Of a DNA stretch of 64,000 nucleotides, positions 828 through 12,649 are shown in pieces; positions within the stretch are counted from its first letter, which is position 1, and every line of letters starts with the position of its first letter. Both the position numbers and the translations under genes were made by a program. The stretch is taken from positions 1,240,001 through 1,304,000 of the forward strand of contig NZ_JBEPOO010000001.1 of the NCBI RefSeq assembly GCF_040546815.1. The letters run 5' to 3'. Under the pieces are notes generated by a model that had not been told where the DNA came from, ran no database searches, and saw only the letters and a program-made list of their open reading frames with translations. Source of the DNA: Devosia sp. 2618. Its GTDB lineage: Bacteria > Pseudomonadota > Alphaproteobacteria > Rhizobiales > Devosiaceae.

Positions 828-950
828 TTTCGGCCCCGTGCCAACTCCATATCCTGATCATCGGGCATGCTGGGCGCATCTGCAATCCCAAGGTGAAATG
901 TCCCCCGTCAACCGATGTGTCTTCCTTCATGCGCGGTCTCTATATGCACT

Positions 951-1086
951 CGCAAAGCGCGCTTCGAGCCCGCCAAAGGAATAGCCATGACCACCTCAAC
1001 ATCGATCATCCCTAACGTCGCGCTCGTGAAGGGCCAACCAATGACCAATAGCCGCGATGTGGCCGAGCTGTTCGGGAAGCGTCATG
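951..1086 (+). repeat. Duplicated Rha-leader segment, copy 1
   Basis: The sequence before and into the first Rha-like frame is repeated imperfectly about 620 bp downstream. CGCAAAGCGC at 951 and GGAATAGCCATGACCA around the start codon match the segment that starts at 1572. A second matching block begins at 1044 and contains GAGCTGTTCGGGAAGCG. The shared leader shows that the two Rha-like frames arose by tandem duplication. Confidence 0.75.
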
Positions 1087-1446
1087 CTGAAGTGCTGCGG
1101 GCCATGACCGGCCTCTATTGCAGCCCCGAGTTCACTGAGCGCAATTTTGCGTTGAGTGAATATCGGGACAGCACTACCGCTCCTTCGATATGTGTAAGGA
1201 TGGCTTCGCCATTCTAGCGATGGGCTTCAACGGGGCCAAGGCTCTTGGGCTCAAGCTGGGACACCCCACCAACCGTCAGTTGAATAGCGAAACTACCCAC
1301 ACCCCCAAGGTCACGATTGCCGTGAAAACTTCCGTGACCTTGTGGACCGCATCAATACAATCAATGACGCGATCAAATACGGTTTTTGGCTCATGAGAAG
1401 ACTTAGCTTTCATGATCAACCCTCCAACATTTTATGTCCGGAATGA
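987..1446 (+). pseudogene. Rha-family phage regulator, broken by frameshifts
   Basis: The frame opening at ATG 987 encodes MTNSRDVAELFGKRHAEVLR, the N-terminal signature of Rha-type phage regulatory proteins (normally read as a small DNA-binding or antirepressor-like domain). At about 1172 the family pattern jumps to another frame, where SFDMCKDGFAILAMGFNGAKAL continues the domain. A third frame further on reads NFRDLVDRINTINDAIKYG before a stop at 1444-1446. Three successive frames covering one protein pattern indicate at least two indels and loss of function. A leader almost identical to that of the second copy (1609) precedes it. Rha was described in lambdoid phage phi80 and interferes with host growth; here it marks prophage remains. 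Confidence 0.7.
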
Positions 1447-2937: not shown

Positions 2938-3012
2938 GCTCTCACCTAGGTGACAAACTATGGGCCTTGAATAGCGTAAGACGCAGTTCTTTCAACCCGG
3001 TAATTATCCCTT

Positions 3013-3129
3013 CGTCCGATAAGGTATACCCACCTCGGACACCATGCTCGCCTGTCTTTTTGTCCGACATGGGTTGACTGTAGATTTATCGGACGATATT
3101 CCGATTGTATCTTAAACCTTTTCGGACAA
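3013..3129 (+). promoter_or_regulatory. Tn3-type res site (three subsites) upstream of the resolvase
   Basis: Three inverted pairs of a half-site close to the Tn3/gamma-delta resolvase consensus TGTCCGATAA occur in order. Subsite I spans 3013-3041: CGTCCGATAA facing CTCGGACA, around a central GGTATACC. Subsite II spans 3061-3094: TGTCCGACAT facing TTATCGGAC. Subsite III spans 3099-3129: a degenerate TTCCGATTG facing TTCGGACAA. In the classic res site the three subsites are about 28, 34 and 25 bp with crossover at subsite I; here they are about 29, 34 and 31 bp. The 11-bp gap between subsite III and the ATG suggests that the resolvase also represses its own promoter. Confidence 0.75.
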
Positions 3130-3139
3130 AGGTTCTCAC

Positions 3140-3694
3140 ATGAAGATTGGCTATGCCCGCGTCTCCTCAACCGGCCAGAATGAGGCAGCACAGGTGGACA
3201 TCCTCACCCGCAACGGGGCGAACGATTTGTTCATCGAGAAGATGAGCGGCGCCACCAGAGAGGGCCGCGAGAAGCTGGCTGAGGCCATCCGCTTCGCCCG
3301 CAAGGGGGATGTGTTGATGGTCACCCGCTTGGACCGGCTGGCTCGCTCTGTCATCGATCTCCACGCCATCAGCCGTGAGCTTGACGCCAAGGGTGTAGAC
3401 CTCATCGTCACCGAACAGAGCATCGACACCACCACACCCACCGGGCGGCTGATGTTCAACATGCTCGCGGCCATCGCTGAGTTCGAGACCGATCTGCGCA
3501 AAGGGCGTCAGCTTGAGGGTATCGCTAAGGCCAAGGAGGAAGGGCGATACAAGGGGCGTCCAGTGACCGTCGATGCAGGGGCTATCAGAGCTGCTTTGGC
3601 CGCTGGGGATAAGCCTATGGCGGTTGCAAAGCGGTTCAACGTGGCCCGTTCGACGGTCTATCGGGTGATGAGCGACGTGGTGGTGAAAGCGTAA
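3140..3694 (+). CDS. Serine recombinase, Tn3 resolvase type
   Basis: 184 residues, full length for the family. The N-terminal catalytic domain contains GYARVSS with the nucleophilic Ser at residue 9, the conserved VTRLDRLARS loop (residues 60-69) and the long E-helix. A C-terminal helix-turn-helix (about 150-180, AVAKRFNVARSTVYRVM) follows. It would resolve directly repeated res sites by site-specific recombination through subsite I. The start ATG has AAAGG 7 bases before it. The res locus directly upstream (3013-3129) is the expected substrate. No transposase gene is present, so this is either a Tn3-family remnant or a stand-alone resolution system carried by the island. Confidence 0.9.
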   Translation: MKIGYARVSSTGQNEAAQVDILTRNGANDLFIEKMSGATREGREKLAEAIRFARKGDVLMVTRLDRLARSVIDLHAISRELDAKGVDLIVTEQSIDTTTPTGRLMFNMLAAIAEFETDLRKGRQLEGIAKAKEEGRYKGRPVTVDAGAIRAALAAGDKPMAVAKRFNVARSTVYRVMSDVVVKA

Positions 3695-3700
3695 CCTGTG

Positions 3701-3732
3701 GGCAACCTAATGCGCGCTTTGGATAGGTTGCC
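3701..3732. terminator. Inverted repeat after the resolvase
   Basis: GGCAACCTA (3701-3709) pairs perfectly with TAGGTTGCC (3724-3732) across a 14-base loop, 7 bases after the resolvase stop codon and between two convergent genes. A T-run follows only some 25 bases later, so efficient intrinsic termination is uncertain. Confidence 0.45.
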
Positions 3733-3784
3733 AGCGTGTTTGAAGATAGGTGTCTGTTTTTTTTGAGCCGTCCTCCAACGCTGT

Positions 3785-4504
3785 TCAGGCATGCTTGCCG
3801 CTATCCTCTGATTGCTGCCTTCGGTGCCGATGCAACACGCCTTCTATGTCGGCTAATGCGTTTAGCGCACGAAGGCTTTTTGTCGAGACTGGAAACATCG
3901 GCTCAACCCATGGCCCGTTCTCAAGCGAAATCAAACCTGAGCGAGTACAGGAAACCGCCAGCGCCCTCGTTTCGTCCTCGGAATGGTTGTGTAGGTGCTG
4001 CATCTCATCTTTGACGGTCTGCCATATCTGATGCTTAGTGGCTTCTGTTGGGCGAGGAACAGCCTCAGCGCGTGAAAACTCTCCAAGTAGGAGAACCTCT
4101 TCCTTACTTAAGGACGCCAACATGTCCGCGTGCCTCAAAAACTCGTCAGCATAGAGCGCTTTCTCCCTCATTTGGCCAGCAGCAACAGCAGCAAGCAGTC
4201 TTAGGTTAAGCCTTGCCGTGCCCTCTACTGCGGCACGCGCATATCGAAACGTCACCGATGCGAGTTCGGCATCAGGTACATCGCCTATGAGTTTTTGCCC
4301 AAGTCTTAGCTCCTCGATGAGGATTTGACGCGCCTGTTCGGTTCTATTCGCTGTCAGCTTTTGCCAAGCACTGAGGCCGACAGCAGTAGACGCGCTACTA
4401 CCAGCCAAGCCGTAAGCGCTCATCGCGTCCGTGATTAATGCGGCAACAACGTCAGGCACCATTGCATACACTGCCATCTTTGAGGCGGCTGAGACTAGCA
4501 GCAT
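3785..4504 (-). CDS. Hypothetical protein, 239 aa, last gene of the leftward protease/nuclease unit
   Basis: No confident family. The N-terminal 50 residues are rich in Ala, Ser and Gly with hydrophobic patches (YAMVPDVVAALITDAMSAYG) but no clean signal peptide. The middle (about 55-150) is predicted by eye to be helical, with many Leu and Glu residues. The C-terminal third contains LAVSCTRSGLISLENGPW, a shape often seen in a short wing or winged-helix-like end. It starts 33 bases after the GIY-YIG nuclease gene on the same strand, so the two are probably co-transcribed. This layout suggests a partner or immunity-like role, which is inference. A resemblance to abortive-infection alpha-type proteins was considered but is too weak to claim. 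Confidence 0.5.
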   Translation of the reverse strand: MLLVSAASKMAVYAMVPDVVAALITDAMSAYGLAGSSASTAVGLSAWQKLTANRTEQARQILIEELRLGQKLIGDVPDAELASVTFRYARAAVEGTARLNLRLLAAVAAGQMREKALYADEFLRHADMLASLSKEEVLLLGEFSRAEAVPRPTEATKHQIWQTVKDEMQHLHNHSEDETRALAVSCTRSGLISLENGPWVEPMFPVSTKSLRALNALADIEGVLHRHRRQQSEDSGKHA

Positions 4505-4537
4505 TCTCTAAGCGCCACGCCAAAGCCTGCTCTCCAC

Positions 4538-5317
4538 TCAGCACCGCCAAAACCTCACAGGGTTCTGCACGTGCTTAAGCTCAGGATTGGTAACGCGCTT
4601 GCCACGGGCTCCTGCATACATCTCCCAAACCTCGCTTGCAGCCTCTTCTCCGACGAAGCCTATGCGATGGCTTTCTGAGCCGTCTGCATGGGGGATTTCC
4701 GGGAAGTTCTCAGGCGTTGCATTCATCCACCTGAGCGGCTTGAACACGCCTACAACGACGCCTCTGACCACTGCCAACACATAGTCAGCCTTCTCCGCAC
4801 GGGCCTTTGAAACCCGCCAGCAGTACCGCACCAAATTGTAGATGGCCTTACGGTCAAAGCGCTCTTCCAGCCTGTTGATGTTGATAAGGACAAGAGCGTG
4901 TTCAGGACGCTCTGGGAACGCGGGCAGGCTGTATTTATCGACCAGCTCAATGTGGTTCATTGGCCCATAGGAACTGCTGGCATGACCGCCTTGGATGTTC
5001 GTCAGGCCGGGATAGGCGTCAATGAGCGCAGCCTCTACATGGAAAACTGCATTGTCTGGAATTTCATGGCGGTGGATGACGTGGATTACGGCCAAGCCTG
5101 CACTCTTTATGGCCCTGATACGGTCTAGCTTGGGCCCAAGGTTCTGGTCATCATCACCACCGGAGATGTCATGCAGTCCTTCGGCGTGGTCGAATACTCG
5201 GTTATTCTTTCCCTTGCCCACGTAGAAAGTCTCGCCATTGCGAGGGTCGATAAGGCGGTAGACATAGTTTCCAAGCTTGTCGCATACCTCTTCAGGGAAC
5301 CGGCTGTGCATCGTCAT
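4538..5317 (-). CDS. LEM-3-like GIY-YIG endonuclease with a C-terminal ASCH/EVE-like domain
   Basis: 259 residues in two parts. Residues about 16-115 form a GIY-YIG nuclease of the LEM-3-like type. NYVYRLID stands for GIY, TFYVGKGKNNR for YIG followed by the catalytic Arg (about residue 40), and VEAALID carries the metal-binding Glu (about 95) before LTNIQGG. Residues about 140-255 contain YCWRVSKARAEKADYVLAVVRGVVVGVF, which resembles the PUA-like (ASCH/EVE) pattern used for binding modified bases or RNA. A DNA-cleaving enzyme guided by a modified-nucleotide reader is a plausible reading, but only the nuclease half is confident. It lies between the trypsin-like protease gene (72-base gap) and the 239-residue gene (33-base gap). 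Confidence 0.7.
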   Translation of the reverse strand: MTMHSRFPEEVCDKLGNYVYRLIDPRNGETFYVGKGKNNRVFDHAEGLHDISGGDDDQNLGPKLDRIRAIKSAGLAVIHVIHRHEIPDNAVFHVEAALIDAYPGLTNIQGGHASSSYGPMNHIELVDKYSLPAFPERPEHALVLININRLEERFDRKAIYNLVRYCWRVSKARAEKADYVLAVVRGVVVGVFKPLRWMNATPENFPEIPHADGSESHRIGFVGEEAASEVWEMYAGARGKRVTNPELKHVQNPVRFWRC

Positions 5318-5389
5318 CTTTCCTAAGTGCTGGATATGGCGGGAACTGGGACGGCTACCACTGACAGTTCATGGCAGGACGGCGTGGCG

Positions 5390-6820
5390 TCAGTTGACCT
5401 CGCAGATAACCTGAACGGTGAATTTGCGTCCCAGCTCGACCAGTTCCTTTGTGCTTTTTGGCTCATCGGTGGACACGCTTGCATCGGGCAAACGGAAAAT
5501 ACTGAGGTACTCAGAGACCGTGTCTCCTTTAATCGCAAAGCCCACGTTCGACGCGATGTTTCCGGTGGACGCAAGCAGGACCTCATCATTGATTTTGGCG
5601 ACTGCTACGCCAACCACTCGCCCGTATTCGTCCAGAACAGGCCCGCCGCTATTGCCCGGTTGTAGGCCAACGTTCGTGGTGAACCACCGAGGCTCCCCCA
5701 TAAGGCCAGTCTCAGACGATACGATACCGGTAAGGACCGTCAGGGATGAGTTCAGAAGGCTTGCCAGAGGATAGCCTATTGCCACTACGTCTTCACCCAA
5801 CTCCACAGGGGAGGTTCTGATTTCAGCAACGGGGTGTGGTGTCGGCTTGAGGAGTTGTAGCACGGCGAGGTCGACTTCATCGTTGCTAGTGATGAGTTTG
5901 GCGTCACCAAAGCCCTTCACCCTGATGACGCTGCATCCATCAACAACGTGCTGGTTTGTCACTAGAACCCCATTGTCAGCAACGAAGAAACCTGAACCAG
6001 AGGAGGTCCCTTTAGGAGGGCTAGCAGTTTGCGACTGAGGCGCACTGTTTGTGGGCTTGGACTGCTCATTTGCTTCCGCTTGAGTGAAGTTCTCTTCAGT
6101 CTCAAAGGCCAACGGATAGGCATGTGAAGCCATAAAGACGGCTAGCATTGAGGCTAGCTCATTACGGGCGGGTACCCACTCAAGCGAGAACCCGGTACTC
6201 TCGCCCGGCGTGTGGCTCATGCGAATGTAGAAACTACGCCCCTCGCGCACCCCGGAGACGACAAAGGCATCTTCCGCGTAGTACTTGTATGTGACCTTGC
6301 GAGCCGCGGTACTGGCGCTCAACGACCTGTAGAGAGCATTGTAGGATTGTTCGGAGAACGGCTTCGTGATGGTTTCTAGGCGTATCGAGTTATCCGCGTT
6401 GAAATATGCTGAGCCTCGGCGCGTATCGGCCTCACGGCTCAGCACGGCCTCCGGTATCACCATCGACATCTGGCCGCGCTGGTCCTTGACGACAGCCATC
6501 CCAAGCTCTTGGAAGATTGCACTCGATTTTTGTAGGAGGGCATTTGATGCCGCGATGGTCAGTACACCGTCAGGCCGCTCACCAATCGCCTTTTGAAATG
6601 CTGTGATGGCCTGAAACGTATAGTTGCCAAATTCGCCATCGCTGGACGCACGATAGTGTCCGAGCAATATCAGAGACGTCTGGATTAGAAATCGGTCATC
6701 TTCGGGCTTCTGATTGAACCAGCGTTCGCTGCTCGAATAGTCTGCGTATGCCCACGTGGTTTGAGCCAACCCACACAGAATGATCAGCAGGGTGAGCAGC
6801 TTGCGACTAAGGATTTGCAT
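5390..6820 (-). CDS. Exported trypsin-like (S1C-type) serine protease with peptidoglycan-binding-like domain
   Basis: 476 residues. A Sec signal peptide ends near residue 26 (AYA-D). Residues about 44-90 (QTSLILLGHYRASSDGEFG and FQAITAFQK) match a peptidoglycan-binding-1-type repeat. A central region of unknown fold (120-240) and a Ser/Thr/Pro-rich linker (250-272) follow. The protease domain has a complete triad: His291 in TNQHVV, Asp317 in DEVDLAVL and Ser391 in GNSGGPV. The protein should therefore act in the periplasm or at the cell wall. It is the first gene of a leftward run with the GIY-YIG nuclease and the 239-residue protein, and it is divergent from another exported peptidase. Similar stand-alone proteases are common in Hyphomicrobiales; being linked to nuclease genes is not. 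Confidence 0.8.
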   Translation of the reverse strand: MQILSRKLLTLLIILCGLAQTTWAYADYSSSERWFNQKPEDDRFLIQTSLILLGHYRASSDGEFGNYTFQAITAFQKAIGERPDGVLTIAASNALLQKSSAIFQELGMAVVKDQRGQMSMVIPEAVLSREADTRRGSAYFNADNSIRLETITKPFSEQSYNALYRSLSASTAARKVTYKYYAEDAFVVSGVREGRSFYIRMSHTPGESTGFSLEWVPARNELASMLAVFMASHAYPLAFETEENFTQAEANEQSKPTNSAPQSQTASPPKGTSSGSGFFVADNGVLVTNQHVVDGCSVIRVKGFGDAKLITSNDEVDLAVLQLLKPTPHPVAEIRTSPVELGEDVVAIGYPLASLLNSSLTVLTGIVSSETGLMGEPRWFTTNVGLQPGNSGGPVLDEYGRVVGVAVAKINDEVLLASTGNIASNVGFAIKGDTVSEYLSIFRLPDASVSTDEPKSTKELVELGRKFTVQVICEVN

Positions 6821-6966
6821 GTTGAGAGTACCCCCGCCACGGTTCTCGCACCAACTCCTGCGAAGCTCAACTCCGAGTAAGCAAGCCTAGGTCTATTTGT
6901 TTTCGGTCTCTTGGCGCTTTTCAAACGATGCTCTAGGCATAGCTTCAAGGCATGAGGGAGCGAGAA
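6821..6966. promoter_or_regulatory. Divergent intergenic region between two exported peptidase genes
   Basis: This 146-base gap must carry the start signals of both the leftward (protease, nuclease, 239 aa) and rightward (metallopeptidase, NACHT) units. I see no clear paired -35/-10 boxes or operator palindrome. It contains AGGCATAGCTTCAAG near 6,935, which also occurs inverted near 437-452. A repeat of that length can arise by chance in 64 kb. Confidence 0.4.
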
Positions 6967-7563
6967 GTGGTTAGGTTTTCTATAACTGTCTTGACGGCCG
7001 TTAGCAGTGTCGTGGCCGTTACGACCTGCAATGCTGGCGACCGCTTACGCATTCACCTCGACGACAGCTCACCGGCCCTACATATGCCGGTTGGGAACCG
7101 TCTCGATGAAGTTGAACCAGCATTCGAGGACTATGCATACATGCTGTTCGATGTTTGTAATGCGATGGGCCTCACATCAGATGAGTGCATGATTTACCCC
7201 TTAAACGGCGCGCTTGGGGGGAACGCGATTGCTACCATCGAAGATGGCAATCGGGTGATTGTCTATGATCGGGAGCTTTCGCCGCTGATCGGTAGTGATG
7301 GTGCCGAGATGGTAGTTGCCCATGAAGTTGCCCACCACTTTTGTGGTCATTTGGGCACGCCAACCGACGCTACTCAGGAGCTTGAGGTCGACCTATTCGC
7401 CGGGGCTGCGATGCGCCTAATGGGCCGCTCGCTCAACGGTGCCCTAAGTGCGGTTGACCTGTTCTCAGAGAGGCCCAGCAAGTCGCACCCTGCACGGGGC
7501 GACCGTATCGACGCCATCACAGCGGGATGGAACCGGCCTGAGGTAGGCAAAGTCTGCGGCTAA
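6967..7563 (+). CDS. Exported HExxH (M48-like) metallopeptidase
   Basis: 198 residues from the GTG at 6967. That start is chosen because GGGAG lies 6 bases upstream and it gives a clean signal peptide (MVRFSITVLTAVSSVVAVTT, cleavage near CNAG-D); an ATG five codons earlier is possible. The zinc site HEVAH is at residues 119-123. A third-ligand motif of M48 type, ELEVD, begins at Glu138, and the C-terminal SHPARGDRIDAI resembles the usual M48 end. The fold is shorter than typical M48 enzymes and lacks their membrane helices. It is probably a periplasmic protease. It precedes the Mrr-NACHT gene on the same strand with a 106-base gap, suggesting co-transcription. Confidence 0.7.
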   Translation: MVRFSITVLTAVSSVVAVTTCNAGDRLRIHLDDSSPALHMPVGNRLDEVEPAFEDYAYMLFDVCNAMGLTSDECMIYPLNGALGGNAIATIEDGNRVIVYDRELSPLIGSDGAEMVVAHEVAHHFCGHLGTPTDATQELEVDLFAGAAMRLMGRSLNGALSAVDLFSERPSKSHPARGDRIDAITAGWNRPEVGKVCG

Positions 7564-7669
7564 GAGCAGGTGGATGGATACCTAGGAATGGAGCCTATTG
7601 GCTTTCTACATCAATTCATTGTGGGCGAAGAACCGCACATACCAACCAGATTCTCAAATGAGGTTTCCG

Positions 7670-10090
7670 ATGCCGTCAACAACTACATCCGGTAACCACT
7701 TTCGAGATGTGGTTCGAGGTCTCTTGGAGGCAGCGGGGTTCATCAATATCACAGTGGAAAAGCCGCTCCCTGGCAAGAATGTGGACATCTATGCGGAGCG
7801 GCGTGGTCTAGTGCCAGAAAAGTATGCGTTCGAGACTAAGGCATACGAGGCGACACTCTCTAACAGCATCGCCAATGAGTTCATAAGCCACTATGGCGCA
7901 CTTCTGGTGACCCAGCAGATACATAAGGCGGTTTTGGTCTCCAAGGGCGCGATCAGCCCGTCTGCATATTCGGCCCTAAGGTCGCATCAAACCAGCGGAA
8001 TGACCTTTGATGAGTTCCAGCGCCATATGTTCGGTGCGCCGGAGTATCTGAGCGATCTAGAACAAATCTACGAGGCTGATGACGCCCGCTCCCTCTATAT
8101 CCCAGCGCGGGTAGAGGGGGAGTTACTTGAGGATGCAGTCAATGCTTGGCTACACGAAAGCCACAACCGGCCCCTAGTTGTCCTCGGAGGATATGGTTCT
8201 GGCAAAACTACATTCGCTTCCCACCTAACCGGCGTGATGGCTAAAGCCGCAATATCTAACCCGCACGTGCGCATCCCTGTCCGGATTAGACTTGGAGACC
8301 TGACAGAGCAAAACAACCTCGAAGGGCTATTCGGAGCGCACTTTACCGCTGCCCACACGATACATGGGTACAGCTGGCCTCTGTTCAGGAAGCTGAATTC
8401 GCTAGGCCGGTTTTTGATCATCTTCGACGGCTTCGATGAGATGAAGCACGGGATGACGATCGGCATGTTTCAGAAGCAGTTTGATCGACTCCTTCAGTTA
8501 GCTGAGGGCAAGGCAAAGGTTCTGGTACTCGGCAGAGACACCGCATTTCTTGATGAAGCGGAATTTAAATCAGTTGTGAAAGGACGCAGCTTCACTGCAA
8601 ATGGGACCGAGGTTCTGAGCCTGTCGAGGCCTGAATGCGACCATGTGAAACTCCTTCCTTTCACCAAGCAGGAAGCCCACAAGTTTATCGCTGGGTACTT
8701 TCGGCATTTATTGATGAAAGATGGCAAGGATTTTGACGGCTGGGCTGAGGTGCGGTTGGGACAGCTTCTCTCGCCGCGGTTTGACCTGCTCATCCAGAAA
8801 CCAGTTCACTCTCAAATGTTGTGCCGAATAGCCACGCGGCCGAATTGGGACATAGCGGGCCTCGACCACTTCAGCCTGTACGATCTTTTCGTTGAGTACC
8901 TGCTCATGCGTGAAGTCGATAAGGAGGGGCGATTTGCTGGGTTCGGCGTCCCTGTACGTCGTACAGCCAATTCAAGCCTTTCATGGTGGCTCTTCTCGCA
9001 AGACGCAGCGTCCACGATGTCGCTAGCCAGTGCGCCCGTAGGTCTCTTTAAGAAGGCAGTGTCTGCCGTTCCCCATGATTTCGATGACGAGGCGTTGGTG
9101 CGGGAGCTTGCGCAAGGGTGTCTGGTTGAGAAGGGAGCAGATGTTGTTTATTTTGGTCACCGCTCGATCCAAGAGTTTTTGGCCGCTGAGCATTTGTATC
9201 AGGCTCGGCTAACTCCCCACCAAGACCACGGGAGTAGCGTTCAAAATGTGTGCAAGTGGGCCACTGAGCAGGTTTGCGGCTTCCTAGAGGAGTTCTTCAC
9301 AAAGCGGCCAGATGCGCGCGATGTTGCCGATGCTGCTCTAGAAACGTTTTTTGGCTATGTGGGGCCGGTTGATCTAGATCGCCTAACACCGTTTGAAATA
9401 GCTCTTCGTCACTCATCTATGGCAAAAAGTCACCTCGCCGGTGCCAGCGGAGTTTGGCTTGGTTGGTTGTCTCAGGGAAAGCTCTCCGACGCCTTCCTCA
9501 GCGAGGAACGTTCAAGCTCGCTGCTGAAGCGCATATATCACTCTAGTGGGAATGATGAATACGCAGCAGGCTTGCACTTGCTGTATTGTGCGGTGTTAGC
9601 CGGTGGTCCGATGCAGACCGGAAGTGCTGTAGCGCCTTTGATCGCCTCGTTGATAAATGTGCAGGAGTTGTCCGGGTTAGTCAGGGGAAGCCGAGGTAAG
9701 CGCAATCTGACTATTTCTTCATCGGAGCATTTGAAAAGCTTTGCTCTAGCGAGAGCCACGTCGCTGCATAAGCATAAGGTGAGCGGTGAGCTTATGGTTG
9801 AGTTGGACATCGATGCAGCCAACCAAGTAGCCCGAAAGGTCTTGGGCTATCTTCCTATAAGGAGTTCGGCGCTTGAAAGCCTAACGTTCGGCACTCCGCT
9901 GCTCTCTGCTCCCGTCCAGACTGTCATGCGAAGCCTTCGTGATCAAAGAGGGGAAAACTCATTGGGCGGGGGAAAAGACGAACTGGTGCGACAATTCTTC
10001 TCCGAAGAAGTACGGGAAAAAGTGTCCGCTGTTGAAGTGGCTAAATCTAGTAGGGCTGTTCAAGTGCCTCGACGCCAGCGAGGCTCATAG
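7670..10090 (+). CDS. Mrr-type nuclease/NACHT STAND ATPase, candidate anti-phage protein
   Basis: 806 residues from ATG 7670, chosen because GAGG lies 6 bases upstream and the nuclease domain starts just after. An upstream TTG at 7598 would add 24 residues. Residues about 8-110 form an Mrr-like restriction-endonuclease domain: FRDVVRGLLEAAGF, then Asp39 (NVDIY), then Glu55-Thr-Lys57 as the D...ExK core. The NACHT ATPase follows, with Walker A GGYGSGKTT at 173-181 and Walker B LIIFDGFDE around 248-257, typical of NACHT. FGHRSIQEFLAAEHL, a NACHT-associated helical motif, occurs near residue 505. About 280 C-terminal residues of unrecognised helical sequence would be the sensor. Bacterial NACHT proteins with nuclease N-termini are known anti-phage effectors; this one's trigger is unknown. 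Confidence 0.85.
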   Translation: MPSTTTSGNHFRDVVRGLLEAAGFINITVEKPLPGKNVDIYAERRGLVPEKYAFETKAYEATLSNSIANEFISHYGALLVTQQIHKAVLVSKGAISPSAYSALRSHQTSGMTFDEFQRHMFGAPEYLSDLEQIYEADDARSLYIPARVEGELLEDAVNAWLHESHNRPLVVLGGYGSGKTTFASHLTGVMAKAAISNPHVRIPVRIRLGDLTEQNNLEGLFGAHFTAAHTIHGYSWPLFRKLNSLGRFLIIFDGFDEMKHGMTIGMFQKQFDRLLQLAEGKAKVLVLGRDTAFLDEAEFKSVVKGRSFTANGTEVLSLSRPECDHVKLLPFTKQEAHKFIAGYFRHLLMKDGKDFDGWAEVRLGQLLSPRFDLLIQKPVHSQMLCRIATRPNWDIAGLDHFSLYDLFVEYLLMREVDKEGRFAGFGVPVRRTANSSLSWWLFSQDAASTMSLASAPVGLFKKAVSAVPHDFDDEALVRELAQGCLVEKGADVVYFGHRSIQEFLAAEHLYQARLTPHQDHGSSVQNVCKWATEQVCGFLEEFFTKRPDARDVADAALETFFGYVGPVDLDRLTPFEIALRHSSMAKSHLAGASGVWLGWLSQGKLSDAFLSEERSSSLLKRIYHSSGNDEYAAGLHLLYCAVLAGGPMQTGSAVAPLIASLINVQELSGLVRGSRGKRNLTISSSEHLKSFALARATSLHKHKVSGELMVELDIDAANQVARKVLGYLPIRSSALESLTFGTPLLSAPVQTVMRSLRDQRGENSLGGGKDELVRQFFSEEVREKVSAVEVAKSSRAVQVPRRQRGS

Positions 10091-10233
10091 TTGACCACCG
10101 CTACAAACGCCGCTACAAACGGCCTCAACGCGGCGGCTAAAAGCCCTGTAATTTCAACGGTCTGAGGCGCTACCCTGCGTTTCTTCTCGACCGCACCAAA
10201 TCTTTCCTTCGGGATTGGTTTTGATACGAAAAC

Positions 10234-10276
10234 ACAACGGGTTAGCTGGATTAGCATCTGGCGCCCGTTGTTTTTT
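10234..10276 (+). terminator. Terminator-like hairpin downstream of the NACHT gene
   Basis: ACAACGGG (10234-10241) pairs with CCCGTTGT (10264-10271) and is followed by a run of T to 10276. The loop is long (22 bases), which weakens the case. It lies about 145 bases after the NACHT stop codon. The sequence between 10,091 and 10,233 holds no gene or RNA that I recognise. Confidence 0.5.
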
Positions 10277-10311
10277 GTCTGAACGTCGGAATTCACAAAT
10301 CGCTGCAATGC

Positions 10312-10340
10312 AAAAAGGCCGCCCCGAGGGACGGCCTTTC
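10312..10340 (-). terminator. Rho-independent terminator of the lipoprotein gene
   Basis: AAAGGCCG and CGGCCTTT flank a GC core (10314-10339) with one mismatch. On the minus strand the stem runs into CCTTTTTG, the usual U-tract. It begins just after the stop of the lipoprotein gene at 10347. Confidence 0.8.
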
Positions 10341-10346
10341 GATGTC

Positions 10347-10631
10347 TTATGCTGGTGGGGTAGCCGGCGTTTCTGCTGGCGGAGCCGCGGGCTCCATCGC
10401 AGGCGGCGTGGTTGGCGTTGGAGTGGATGGCTCCGGTGTCATTGTGGGAGCGGGGGTCGCTGGCGCTGGAGTAGGAGGCGGCGTGACCGCGGGCTCGGCT
10501 GGAGCCGGCGTAACCACAGCAGGCGTATCGTCGGCCGGTGGAGTGGTATTGTTGGCTGGTGCGTCGCCGCCACATGCGGCGAGAGTCATGGCTAAGACGA
10601 CTGCGAGGGGCGCCAAAAATTGTTTCGACAT
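10347..10631 (-). CDS. Small Pro/Thr/Ala-rich lipoprotein
   Basis: 94 residues from the ATG at 10631, which has AGGAG 5 bases upstream; a longer frame from 10673 has no such signal. The N-terminus is a lipoprotein signal peptide with lipobox LAAC (Cys about residue 20) followed by GGD. The mature part is almost entirely Pro, Thr, Ala and Glu repeats (TPAPATPAPTMTPEPSTP). It is likely an outer-membrane or periplasmic lipoprotein with an extended, unfolded tail. No function recognised. The opposite strand also has an open Gly/Ala-rich frame, but the lipobox, ribosome binding site and downstream terminator all favour this strand. Confidence 0.75.
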   Translation of the reverse strand: MSKQFLAPLAVVLAMTLAACGGDAPANNTTPPADDTPAVVTPAPAEPAVTPPPTPAPATPAPTMTPEPSTPTPTTPPAMEPAAPPAETPATPPA

Positions 10632-10723
10632 GGGATCTCCTAGGTTGAACCGTTTATTGATCTTGGTCTTCAAACACGCGTGAACTAGCGGGTATAATAG
10701 GGCGAAGATGGGGCCTTTTCTGG

Positions 10724-11098
10724 TTATTTGGGGTCGGGAGCGGCGGTTGGGCGTTCCGATGCAAGCCTTTTTGGGGCTTTGAAACGCCAGGCATCTTCTA
10801 GGCGCAGGGCGAGTTCTTCGTCGGCGATCACGTCGAGGCGGATCAGCACGGCAGGGTGACCGACATAGTGGGCGGTCTCGAAATAGATTTCGGGCGAAAT
10901 ATCCATCAGCAGCGCCTTCTGCTCGGACGGGCAGTGCAGCACCAGGGTCTGCTCATCCTTGAGGCGGGCAAACAGTGCCTTCCTCACCTTGAGTGAGGGG
11001 GAGCGATAGCTGGTCGAGCGTTCGAGGCCGGGCAGGGATTTACCTGCCGCCAACTGCTCAATTCGCACAAAAGCCTGATCAAGTTCTTTGGAGCTCAT
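10724..11098 (-). CDS. MmcQ/YjbR-family protein
   Basis: 124 residues with the YjbR/MmcQ pattern: an N-terminal helix, the stretch RKALFARLKDEQTLVLHCPSEQK followed by LLMDISPEIYFETAHYVGHPAVLIRL, and a C-terminal helix ending in the DAWRFKAPKR segment typical of this fold (double-wing DNA-binding-like). Family members are small cytosolic proteins often annotated as DNA-binding, with no established role. AAGGAG lies 9 bases before the ATG. It is divergent from mgtE, and nothing nearby suggests a pathway. Confidence 0.8.
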   Translation of the reverse strand: MSSKELDQAFVRIEQLAAGKSLPGLERSTSYRSPSLKVRKALFARLKDEQTLVLHCPSEQKALLMDISPEIYFETAHYVGHPAVLIRLDVIADEELALRLEDAWRFKAPKRLASERPTAAPDPK

Positions 11099-11233
11099 TT
11101 CAAGCTACTCCTTGAGTGCATAGGAGATTTTTCGTTGAGCGGAGCAATTTCGTACCTCTGAGTCTGGCGCTTCCAGTATCGATTGGCTACAGCTTGTTTT
11201 GCCCCCGAACCCCCCGGACACAAAGGGCTCCCT

Positions 11234-12649
11234 ATGAGCACAGACTTCGAAACAGCATCCGGTGCCGAGGCCGGGGAAGAAACAAATGCGTTCCGCGACA
11301 TCGAAGATCGGATCAGTCCACTCTGGCTAGAACGCCTGCGCGCCTATTTGGCTGCGGGGCGAAATGAAGATGTTGCAACTGTCATCGAACCGCTACACGC
11401 CGCCGACGTTGGTGACGTGCTGGAATCGCTCGATGCAGACGAGCGTTTGCACCTTGTTCGGGTGCTGGGCGACCGGTTCGATTACTCGGCACTGACCGAG
11501 GTTGATGAGTCGGTTCGTATCGAGCTGATGGAAGAATTGCCGAACGCGGAAATCGCGCGCGGCGTCAGTGGCCTCGACAACGACGACGCCGTCGCAATTC
11601 TGGAAGACCTCGAGCAGGTCGACCGTGACGAAGTTCTGGCCAAGCTGCCGACTTTCGAGCGACTGAGCCTCAAGCGGAGCCTAGATTTTCCCGAAGACTC
11701 CGCCGGCCGGCGGATGCAGACCGATTTTATCGCCATTCCGCCGTTCTGGTCGGTTGGGCAGACCATCGACTATCTGCGCACTGAGCCGGACCTGCCGGAC
11801 GAATTCTATCAGATCTATGTGGTGGATGCGTCCTATCAGGTGCTGGGCACCATTCCGCTCGACAAGTTCTTGCGGGCGCAGCGCGCGGCTTCCATCGAAG
11901 AGTTGATGAACACCAATCTGGTGCTGGTCGACGCCAATGAAGATCAGGAAGAAGCGGCGCGCGATTTCGAGCGCTACGATCTGGTTGAAGTCGGCGTGGT
12001 GGACGAAAGCAGACGTCTGGTCGGCGTGCTGACCATCGACGACATCGTCGACGTTATCCACGAAGAAGCCGACGAGGATATCAAGCTGCTCGCCGGTGTG
12101 GGCGACGAAGATATTTCAGATACCACCGTCGATACTGTGCGCAGCCGTGTGCCCTGGCTGGTGATCAACCTGTTCGCCGCCGTCTGCGTGTCCATGGTCA
12201 TCGGGCTGTTCGATGCCACCATCGAGCAAATGGTGTCGCTGGCCGTGCTGATGCCGATCGTGGCGTCGATGGGTGGCAATGCCGGTACGCAGACCATGAC
12301 GGTCACAGTGCGCGCGCTGGCGATGCGCGAGCTCGACGGGCGCCGTCTACGCCGTCTTGTCACCCGCGAAGTGATCGTGGGTTTTGCCAATGGCGTGATC
12401 TTTGCGATCCTGATCGGGCTCGTGACCTGGCTCCGGTTCCAGAACCCCGAACTGGGCGTCGTCATCGGCATGGCCATGGTCATCAACATGATCGTGGCCG
12501 GCACGATGGGCATTCTGGTGCCGGTGACGCTGGACAAGTTCAAGGCCGACCCGGCGATTGCCTCGGCGGTGTTTGTGACGACGATTACCGACGTGGTGGG
12601 CTTCTTCGCCTTCCTCGGCATTGCAGGGCTGTGGTTCGGGCTGTTCTAG
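11234..12649 (+). CDS. mgtE: Magnesium transporter MgtE
   Basis: 471 residues from ATG 11234; an upstream in-frame extension lacks a start signal. Order of domains: an acidic N-terminal MgtE_N superhelical domain (about 25-125, with LHAADVGDVLESL), a CBS pair (about 130-255) that senses cytosolic Mg2+, a plug helix (DEDIKLLAGVGDED), and five membrane helices from about residue 305. The selectivity region PIVASMGGNAGTQT (about 340-353) is present. It imports Mg2+ across the inner membrane and closes when Mg2+ binds the CBS/N domains. The next gene starts at the base after its stop, so the two are co-transcribed. No Mg2+ riboswitch was recognised upstream. Confidence 0.92.
   Translation: MSTDFETASGAEAGEETNAFRDIEDRISPLWLERLRAYLAAGRNEDVATVIEPLHAADVGDVLESLDADERLHLVRVLGDRFDYSALTEVDESVRIELMEELPNAEIARGVSGLDNDDAVAILEDLEQVDRDEVLAKLPTFERLSLKRSLDFPEDSAGRRMQTDFIAIPPFWSVGQTIDYLRTEPDLPDEFYQIYVVDASYQVLGTIPLDKFLRAQRAASIEELMNTNLVLVDANEDQEEAARDFERYDLVEVGVVDESRRLVGVLTIDDIVDVIHEEADEDIKLLAGVGDEDISDTTVDTVRSRVPWLVINLFAAVCVSMVIGLFDATIEQMVSLAVLMPIVASMGGNAGTQTMTVTVRALAMRELDGRRLRRLVTREVIVGFANGVIFAILIGLVTWLRFQNPELGVVIGMAMVINMIVAGTMGILVPVTLDKFKADPAIASAVFVTTITDVVGFFAFLGIAGLWFGLF

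Follow-up and report, generated by a model that had tools for sequence, protein, structure and literature searches.

CMoRE (PD-T4-3) is a published one-gene type IV restriction enzyme that protects Escherichia coli on its own, and most of its members, though not all, carry a negatively charged loop (PMC12923530). STAND NTPases with an N-terminal Mrr_cat domain are reported from the hotspots of P4 satellites in the available part of Rousset et al. 2022 (PMC9122126), and a review (PMC11389934) counts VEIMEs and tycheposons among the families of satellites and mentions that satellites carry defence cargo. Trypsin-like proteases appear in CARD-NLR (Lyp), where a CARD-trypsin-ATPase protein has an NLR-like partner (PMC13236601, available part), and in an accessory pair of Hachiman and AVAST, composed of an MBL-fold nuclease and a trypsin fused to the defence enzyme (Tuck et al. 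2025, PMC12799240, available part). Here we compare with these systems a block of five genes at positions 3785–10090 of a 64,000-nucleotide stretch of the Devosia sp. 2618 genome (contig NZ_JBEPOO010000001.1, positions 1,240,001–1,304,000; hereafter, the window). The genes encode a 239-amino-acid protein (p239), a GIY-YIG nuclease, a trypsin-like protease, a HExxH peptidase and an Mrr-NACHT protein, and an initial annotation had proposed them as one undescribed defence system. The block is the right, cargo-bearing end of an 18.07-kb integrative element in the 3' end of tRNA-Leu(GAG), and we are confident, if not certain, that its genes occupy the cargo bay of that element as independent modules rather than forming one system.

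The borders of the element are exact. The tRNA-Leu(GAG) gene is located to the left of the window at L092:10047–10133 (L and G numbers denote stretches of sequence and genomes, respectively; G000 is the genome of the window). Its final 17 bp (genome positions 1232116–1232132) are directly repeated as the core of the right attachment site (attR), TCTTCTCGACCGCACCA, at 10182–10198 (+), which begins 91 bp past the stop codon of the Mrr-NACHT gene. The right end of the element (10091–10198, +) contains repeated CGCTACAAACG words, which are probably the arm sites of the integrase. Blastn searches with the island ends revealed that the sequence preceding attR is kept in four elements (G000, G017, G022 and G036), and no Rfam family scored above the gathering threshold near the right end. 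Exact matches to the attachment (att) 17-mer were counted in 75 genomes of the same genus: 67 contain one copy, six contain two and two contain none (G058 and G077). The two copies are 18.07 kb apart in G000, 19.4 kb in G036, 10.8 kb in G072, 10.2 kb in G022 and 295 bases in G052, and are found on two contigs in G017.

The DNA of sister genomes aligns to that of Devosia sp. 2618 up to the end of tRNA-Leu(GAG) and again to the right of window position 10182. Of the 59 sister genomes in which mgtE has a match, 19 contributed flanking stretches to the comparison. The gap between the lipB-like core gene and mgtE measures 19.5 kb in the genome of the window, and 0.9–4.1 kb in the 13 of these 19 stretches in which both open reading frames (ORFs) were called and the site is unoccupied. 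It is 11.6 kb in G022, where the site is occupied; in the other five stretches an overlapping frame hides one or both ORFs (L102, L103, L106 and L109), or one or both fall outside the stretch (L097, from G036). The site is an integration site, present in the genus in both empty and occupied states. The block, placed in accessory DNA from the outset, lies inside the 18.07-kb insert. With such borders in hand, related bacteria can be searched for other contents of the cargo slot. In G052 the double att does not mark an element but a tandem pair of tRNA-Leu(GAG) genes at a spacing of 295 bases (L132:1976–2357).

Elements with related integrases are held by five of the six two-copy genomes (G000, G017, G022, G036 and G072). 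To the left of the window the element of G000 encodes tyrosine recombinases of 585 and 358 amino acids, an 852-amino-acid protein and RNase H. The 585-amino-acid recombinase has homologues in G036 (67% identity), G072 (64%) and G017 (61%), and is broken up in G022 into pieces found on both strands. The G036 element follows the same order, with counterparts of RNase H (44%), a 210-amino-acid protein (73%), the Rap1a-like protein (66%), the MarR-like regulator (35%) and p239 (41%). The genes near attR differ from one related element to the next: Mrr-NACHT, HExxH peptidase, trypsin and CMoRE in G000; DRT2 (PADLOC, 421 bits), trypsin and a 730-amino-acid protein without Pfam or PADLOC match in G017; a 1251-amino-acid NACHT-LRR protein in G036; and, in G072, an HNH protein that matches, through its N-terminus, an HNH endonuclease and SAVED-domain proteins in the PDB and that we presume to be linked to Cap5 of CBASS. 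G022 has a 263-amino-acid frame of no recognised family near attR and, 3.4 kb inside, a 221-amino-acid protein with a Pfam Mrr_N score of 28.8 against a cut-off of 29.5. PADLOC gave no match to five hotspot and neighbouring genes (in L094, L095, L100, L108 and L009). The 730-amino-acid protein of G017 (L068:10788–12980), encoded between the resolvase and the trypsin, is possibly an unrecognised defence gene. In G022 (L096:7914–12477) a 591-amino-acid frame stands between the integrase pieces, as would be expected after an inversion.

All five ORFs of the block occupy the positions given in the initial annotation and are uninterrupted, with the catalytic motifs named there intact (Ser391 in GNSGG, HEVAHH, E79xK81 and the Walker A motif GGYGSGKT). 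Three are transcribed leftwards: p239 (3785–4459, −; the ORF opens at 4504), the GIY-YIG gene (4538–5317, −) and the trypsin gene (5390–6820, −). The HExxH gene (6952–7563, +) and the Mrr-NACHT gene (7670–10090, +) run in the opposite direction. The most likely starts of p239 and of the NACHT protein are the ATG codons at 4459 and 7670, the latter rather than the TTG at 7598 from which the ORF can be read, because the aligned relatives begin there. With the trypsin and HExxH genes starting at 6820 and 6952, the divergent intergenic region (6821–6951) comprises 131 bases rather than the 146 previously counted. A promoter scan of positions 3000–10800 returned three sites, against 3.8 expected by chance; the shared control region therefore gains nothing from it, and we rejected a shared promoter for the divergent genes.

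The GIY-YIG gene encodes a full-length member of the CMoRE/PD-T4-3 family and is predicted to specify the corresponding one-gene restriction enzyme. Residues 4–255 match positions 3–251 of the 256-position PADLOC PD-T4-3 profile (268.9 bits), residues 5–256 match PDB entries 9u75 and 9u7u (205 and 201.5 bits), and Pfam recognises LEM-3_GIY-YIG (46.6 bits, cut-off 27). Alignment to the crystal sequences shows that the third tyrosine of the GIYxY-YIG motif is kept (NYVYRL from residue 17, YVGKG from residue 32) and that a run of three aspartates at 55–57 coincides with the DDDD/DDDE inhibitory loop, with one acidic residue fewer than the four of the published enzyme. The protein thus shares with CMoRE the two full-length domains, the motif and the acidic run at the place of the loop; it differs in the length of that run and in its carrier, here a chromosomal tRNA element. 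DNA with 5hmC or 5ghmC, which the family degrades, is the predicted substrate. The base-reading domain first suggested for this nuclease is accounted for by the modified-cytosine-sensing C-terminal domain of the family, and its membership in a one-gene system that is already published runs counter to its inclusion in an undescribed set. In the annotation around the closest plasmid relatives (77% and 75%), no relative of the other four genes appears except for an M48 family gene located 2.6 kb from the first of them; the HExxH query had no match in that record at E 1e-5. A single-protein search of viral contigs, sensitive to close relatives only, found no CMoRE homologue.

The Mrr-NACHT protein consists of an Mrr nuclease domain (Pfam Mrr_cat, 33.2 bits, cut-off 21), a NACHT NTPase domain (27.1 bits, cut-off 26.7) and a C-terminal region that is mostly helical in the structure model (mean predicted local distance difference test score 82.6). 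The Walker A motif GGYGSGKT, the FDGFDE motif and the nuclease residues E79xK81 are all present. Foldseek matched the model to NOD2 (E 1.9e-10), NLRP3 and Avs4 (8dgf). On its sequence and model the protein is best described as a bacterial NLR-like effector, in agreement with the anti-phage role that it had been considered capable of. It resembles the bNACHT proteins with an N-terminal PD-(D/E)XK DNase (bNACHT25 and bNACHT32) in its N-terminal nuclease, central NACHT domain and helical C-terminal region, but falls in a subfamily of its own, in which DEMKHGMT and HRSIQEFL are invariant in the 20 sequences aligned of 21. With the Mrr_cat-STAND proteins of P4, as far as the available part of their description goes, it shares the type of architecture and the location, a defence slot of varying content in an element with a tyrosine integrase; the element here, however, is located at tRNA-Leu(GAG) of an alphaproteobacterium, and no relationship to P4 was seen. 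At E ≤ 1 the PADLOC and NCBIfam matches included no Avs model, no solved structure was retrieved by sequence with the family profile, and 43 pattern-bearing stretches in viral contigs included no relative. Plasmid-borne relatives have SIR2, CBASS and integrase genes in their vicinity.

The two proteases had been annotated as exported. Both possess N-termini that look signal-like on visual inspection and in a hydropathy scan, and to that extent the annotation stands. The trypsin-like protein combines an N-terminal peptidoglycan-binding domain (PG_binding_1, 31.2 bits) with a Trypsin_2 domain (91.7 bits) bearing GNSGG at 389, TNQHVV and DLAVL. Proteases of the HtrA, DegQ and MarP type have in common with it the trypsin-like catalytic domain and the signal-like N-terminus; the window protein has PG_binding_1 at its N-terminus and no PDZ match, and belongs to a clade of mobile elements. 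Its gene is intact in three of the five elements (G000, G017 and G072, the latter two at about 55%), broken into three pieces in G036 (L097:6673–7240, between p239 and the NACHT-LRR gene) and was not found in G022. The element trypsins are 53–75% identical to each other and at most 43% identical to six from elsewhere. None of five backbone genes of the element was found near eight non-element trypsin loci, and PADLOC matched only one of ten neighbours of such loci, as RTasPolA, on a 989-amino-acid protein that we take to be the housekeeping DNA polymerase I. No trypsin relative was found in viral contigs by a single-protein search that detects close relatives only. Compared with CARD-NLR, as described in the available part of that report, the protein shows only PG_binding and Trypsin_2, although a divergent CARD would escape such a search. 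At two of six loci checked in other families of the order (L072 and L073), genes for trypsins with a peptidoglycan-binding domain are located 68 and 511 bases from tRNA genes and perhaps also belong to tRNA elements.

The HExxH protein scored 19.7 bits with Pfam M48, below the cut-off of 20.3, and possesses HEVAHH and a glutamate ligand. Most of the 108 relatives listed carry the Pfam M48 label, and 26 of the 108 were aligned. The 183 residues that were modelled adopt an M48-like fold, for which a second look with VIA-align indicated BepA; Foldseek returned nothing at E 0.001 or better, and the profile matched no solved structure by sequence. BepA (YfgC) carries an additional TPR domain. The window protein, a putative zinc peptidase, differs in lacking that domain, in being compact and cysteine-rich, and in having relatives in phage structural modules: two of these (L085:7896–8558 and L066:9442–10008) are encoded in phage-like regions, where tail, endolysin/internal and head-tail genes surround them, and their contexts point to a phage origin of the peptidase. 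No PHROG match was obtained for the genes next to a third (L084). The two proteases may be passengers, serving in envelope quality control or as aids to phage lysis or entry, or else weapons at the stage of entry.

In order to find out whether the five families are linked elsewhere, we searched order-wide samples of 327 genomes (for HExxH, GIY-YIG, p239 and trypsin) and 397 genomes (for NACHT). HExxH was found in eight genomes (five at ≥ 50 bits), GIY-YIG in eight, p239 in four and NACHT in four. The trypsin query matches all 327 through the HtrA superfamily; full-length homologues, defined by one match of at least 140 bits over at least 85% of the query, are present in 13, and G258 and G351 match the query in two pieces. 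Only the genome of the window holds more than one of the families; the one exception is G017, which has the trypsin and, on another contig, a NACHT-domain match of 33.7 bits. Eight NACHT loci were examined together with as much as 10 kb of flanking DNA: no GIY-YIG, trypsin, HExxH or p239 gene was found there, and two of the eight have a resolvase-like gene (42%) nearby. The Bosea plasmid NZ_AP022849.1 contains relatives of both the HExxH peptidase (59%) and CMoRE (46%); the two loci, near 109.5 kb and 296.6 kb, are about 187 kb apart. Outside the element family, none of the stretches examined revealed another locus in which two of the five genes are direct neighbours.

These distributions bear directly on the original proposal, in which the proteases would act at phage entry and the nucleases at a later stage, with a common divergent control region. 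The compactness of the block, the intactness of its genes in accessory DNA and the joint presence of two of the families on the Bosea plasmid speak for it. However, its homologues occur independently of each other, which was the outcome named beforehand as speaking against one system; in addition, CMoRE protects alone, p239 and the trypsin have other partners in sister elements, and the promoter scan gave chance-level counts. We rejected the five-gene system on the absence of linkage across the samples and loci and regard it as scarcely credible. Compactness and a location in accessory DNA do not, as seen here once more, make a gene cluster a system. What persists of its anti-phage content is two enzymes of known kinds. 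A smaller unit, an operon in which the HExxH peptidase modulates or matures the NACHT sensor, is unlikely, though better motivated. The two genes are on the same strand with 106 bases from the HExxH stop to the probable NACHT start, and the closest relatives of both are mostly metagenomic, the longest contigs of P0025 (HExxH) and P0004 (NACHT) being 6369 and 6368 bases long and possibly the same DNA. On the other hand, HExxH was not found at any of the eight NACHT loci within the flanks examined, no NACHT relative was found at HExxH loci L009, L014–L020, L064–L067, L084 and L085 or in the annotation of L091 (some of these stretches being short), and the peptidase appears to be exported, the NACHT protein to be cytosolic. 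That the trypsin and a neighbouring nuclease form a protease-activated pro-nuclease pair like that of Hachiman and AVAST (Tuck et al. 2025) is very improbable. The trypsin adjoins GIY-YIG here and an HNH gene in G072, and the PADLOC profiles RT-Protease_XI (E 5.5e-18), PDC and HamA match it, with the matches confined to the trypsin domain. In the published pair, as far as the available part of the report describes it, the nuclease is of the MBL fold and the protease is fused to the defence enzyme; the five proteins here include no MBL-fold match and no such fusion, the probable compartment differs given the signal-like N-terminus and the peptidoglycan-binding domain, and the neighbours of the protease vary between elements.

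Three observations weigh against the cargo bay of independent modules that we favour. The order of the HExxH and NACHT genes and the gap between them fit co-transcription, and a conserved HExxH-NACHT pair may exist among the two closest NACHT relatives (72% and 59%). Within the element family the trypsin is repeatedly found next to defence-like genes and may therefore be more than a passenger. Finally, the defence-like match in G022 falls below the Pfam cut-off and is farther from attR than the 263-amino-acid frame. In the reading that we favour, a tyrosine integrase inserted the element at the 3' end of tRNA-Leu(GAG), leaving the end of the tRNA gene at both borders, and excision could be expected. 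CMoRE would cut entering phage DNA containing hydroxymethyl or glucosyl-hydroxymethyl cytosine. The C-terminal region of the Mrr-NACHT protein would sense a phage product, upon which the NACHT NTPase would oligomerise, the Mrr nuclease would destroy DNA and the infected cell would be stopped. The trypsin could be an old periplasmic passenger of the element family and the M48-like peptidase a phage-type periplasmic protease. With such activities in Devosia the element would gain by protecting its host.

The element family is the more interesting part of the finding. The 852-amino-acid protein of G000, encoded outside the window (L092:14193–16751, genome positions 1236192–1238750, +), had no PHROG match and only a sub-threshold match to Pfam MafB, but shares 32% identity over 788 columns with a viral-contig protein in what we take to be the T7 gp15 position, itself assigned to PHROG 23202, internal virion protein (E 1.4e-13). 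Its homologue in G072 is 55% identical over 703 residues. In G036 the same slot before RNase H is occupied by a 1281-amino-acid protein matching PHROG 342, 'internal virion protein with endolysin domain' (E 5.9e-136), pieces of a gene of this type are present in G022, and none was found between the recombinase and RNase H in G017, where the rest of the element is incomplete. Neither the 852- nor the 1281-amino-acid protein matched a solved structure. Virion-protein homologues are thus found in four of the five elements, of gp15 type in G000 and G072 and of gp16 type in G036 and, in pieces, in G022, which suggests that the element may have a T7-like podovirus as its helper and be a phage satellite.

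VEIMEs and tycheposons insert into tRNA genes. With these and other satellites (P4, PICI and PICMI) the element shares a tyrosine integrase, small size, phage-like genes and defence cargo; it is distinguished by its single T7-type ejection-protein gene. Pfam and PHROG scans of 16 of its 20 ORFs of at least 80 amino acids revealed no capsid, terminase or portal family, and no relaxase or type IV secretion genes as expected of integrative conjugative or mobilizable elements (four ORFs of 80–122 amino acids were left out). The competing possibility, to which we give somewhat less than an even chance, is that the element is a decayed prophage or a hybrid island with the ejection gene and RNase H as leftovers. 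The fragmentary Rha-like gene, the pieces of integrase and gp16-type genes in G022, the broken trypsin of G036 and the lack of a virion-protein match between recombinase and RNase H in G017 are consistent with decay. Yet the virion-protein genes of three elements are long intact frames (852, 716 and 1281 amino acids), no other virion gene was seen in the ORFs scanned of the G000 element, and the G072 element is compact, at 10.8 kb, with a similar layout.

More specifically, the elements could represent an undescribed family of podovirus satellites at tRNA-Leu(GAG) that combines one T7-type ejection gene with the peptidoglycan-anchored trypsin as an entry weapon, a proposal that we consider improbable as it stands. 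In the periplasm, the trypsin would cleave the ejection conduit of rival podoviruses, the element's variant of the ejection protein would let the particles of a helper phage deliver the satellite, and the cytosolic cargo (CMoRE, Mrr-NACHT, DRT2 and HNH) would act as a second line. Trypsin and ejection gene occur together in three of the five elements (G000, G072 and, as a remnant, G036), and this co-occurrence lends interest to the idea of interference at periplasmic entry; but the virion gene of G022 is in pieces and without a trypsin, and G017 has a trypsin with no virion gene seen. We found no description of an element family with a lone ejection gene and an exported trypsin, a negative of little weight given the partial coverage of the literature. 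If such a satellite strategy were real, it would amount to a novel form of interference with the entry of phage DNA in the periplasm.

The remaining genes of the element within the window belong to its backbone. A small Rap1a-like protein, putatively exported, is encoded at 489–827 (−; Pfam Rap1a, 36.6 bits), with its homologue in the same order in G036. It is followed by a fragment of a Rha/anti-repressor-like gene at 915–1217 (+), matching parts of PHROG 821 (E 8e-18) and PHROG 518 (E 3e-16), and by a MarR/HTH-like regulator at 2024–2497 (+; Pfam MarR_2, 35.5 bits), homologues of which are present in G036 (35%) and G022 (34%). The serine resolvase at 3140–3694 (+; Pfam Resolvase, 138.7 bits) has an 88.6% identical copy in the G017 element. 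We assign p239 to the backbone as well, because its homologue occupies the same place in the gene order of G036 and both adjoin a resolvase-family gene, even though the two resolvases do not match each other. Judging from this context, p239 is part of the element's own machinery beside the resolvase rather than defence cargo. It matched no Pfam family at the cut-off (best E 0.043) and nothing in PADLOC, NCBIfam or PHROGs; 22 of 32 related proteins were aligned, and relatives are present in three viral contigs.

To the right of attR the window continues with core genes outside the element. The yjbR-like gene at 10724–11098 (−; Pfam YjbR) has homologues adjoining mgtE in sister genomes, and the gene at 11183–12649 (+), which we presume to be mgtE, has a match in 60 of 61 genomes of the genus, its own included. 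A frame for a proline/threonine-rich, lipoprotein-like protein is located between attR and the yjbR-like gene, at 10347–10673 (−).

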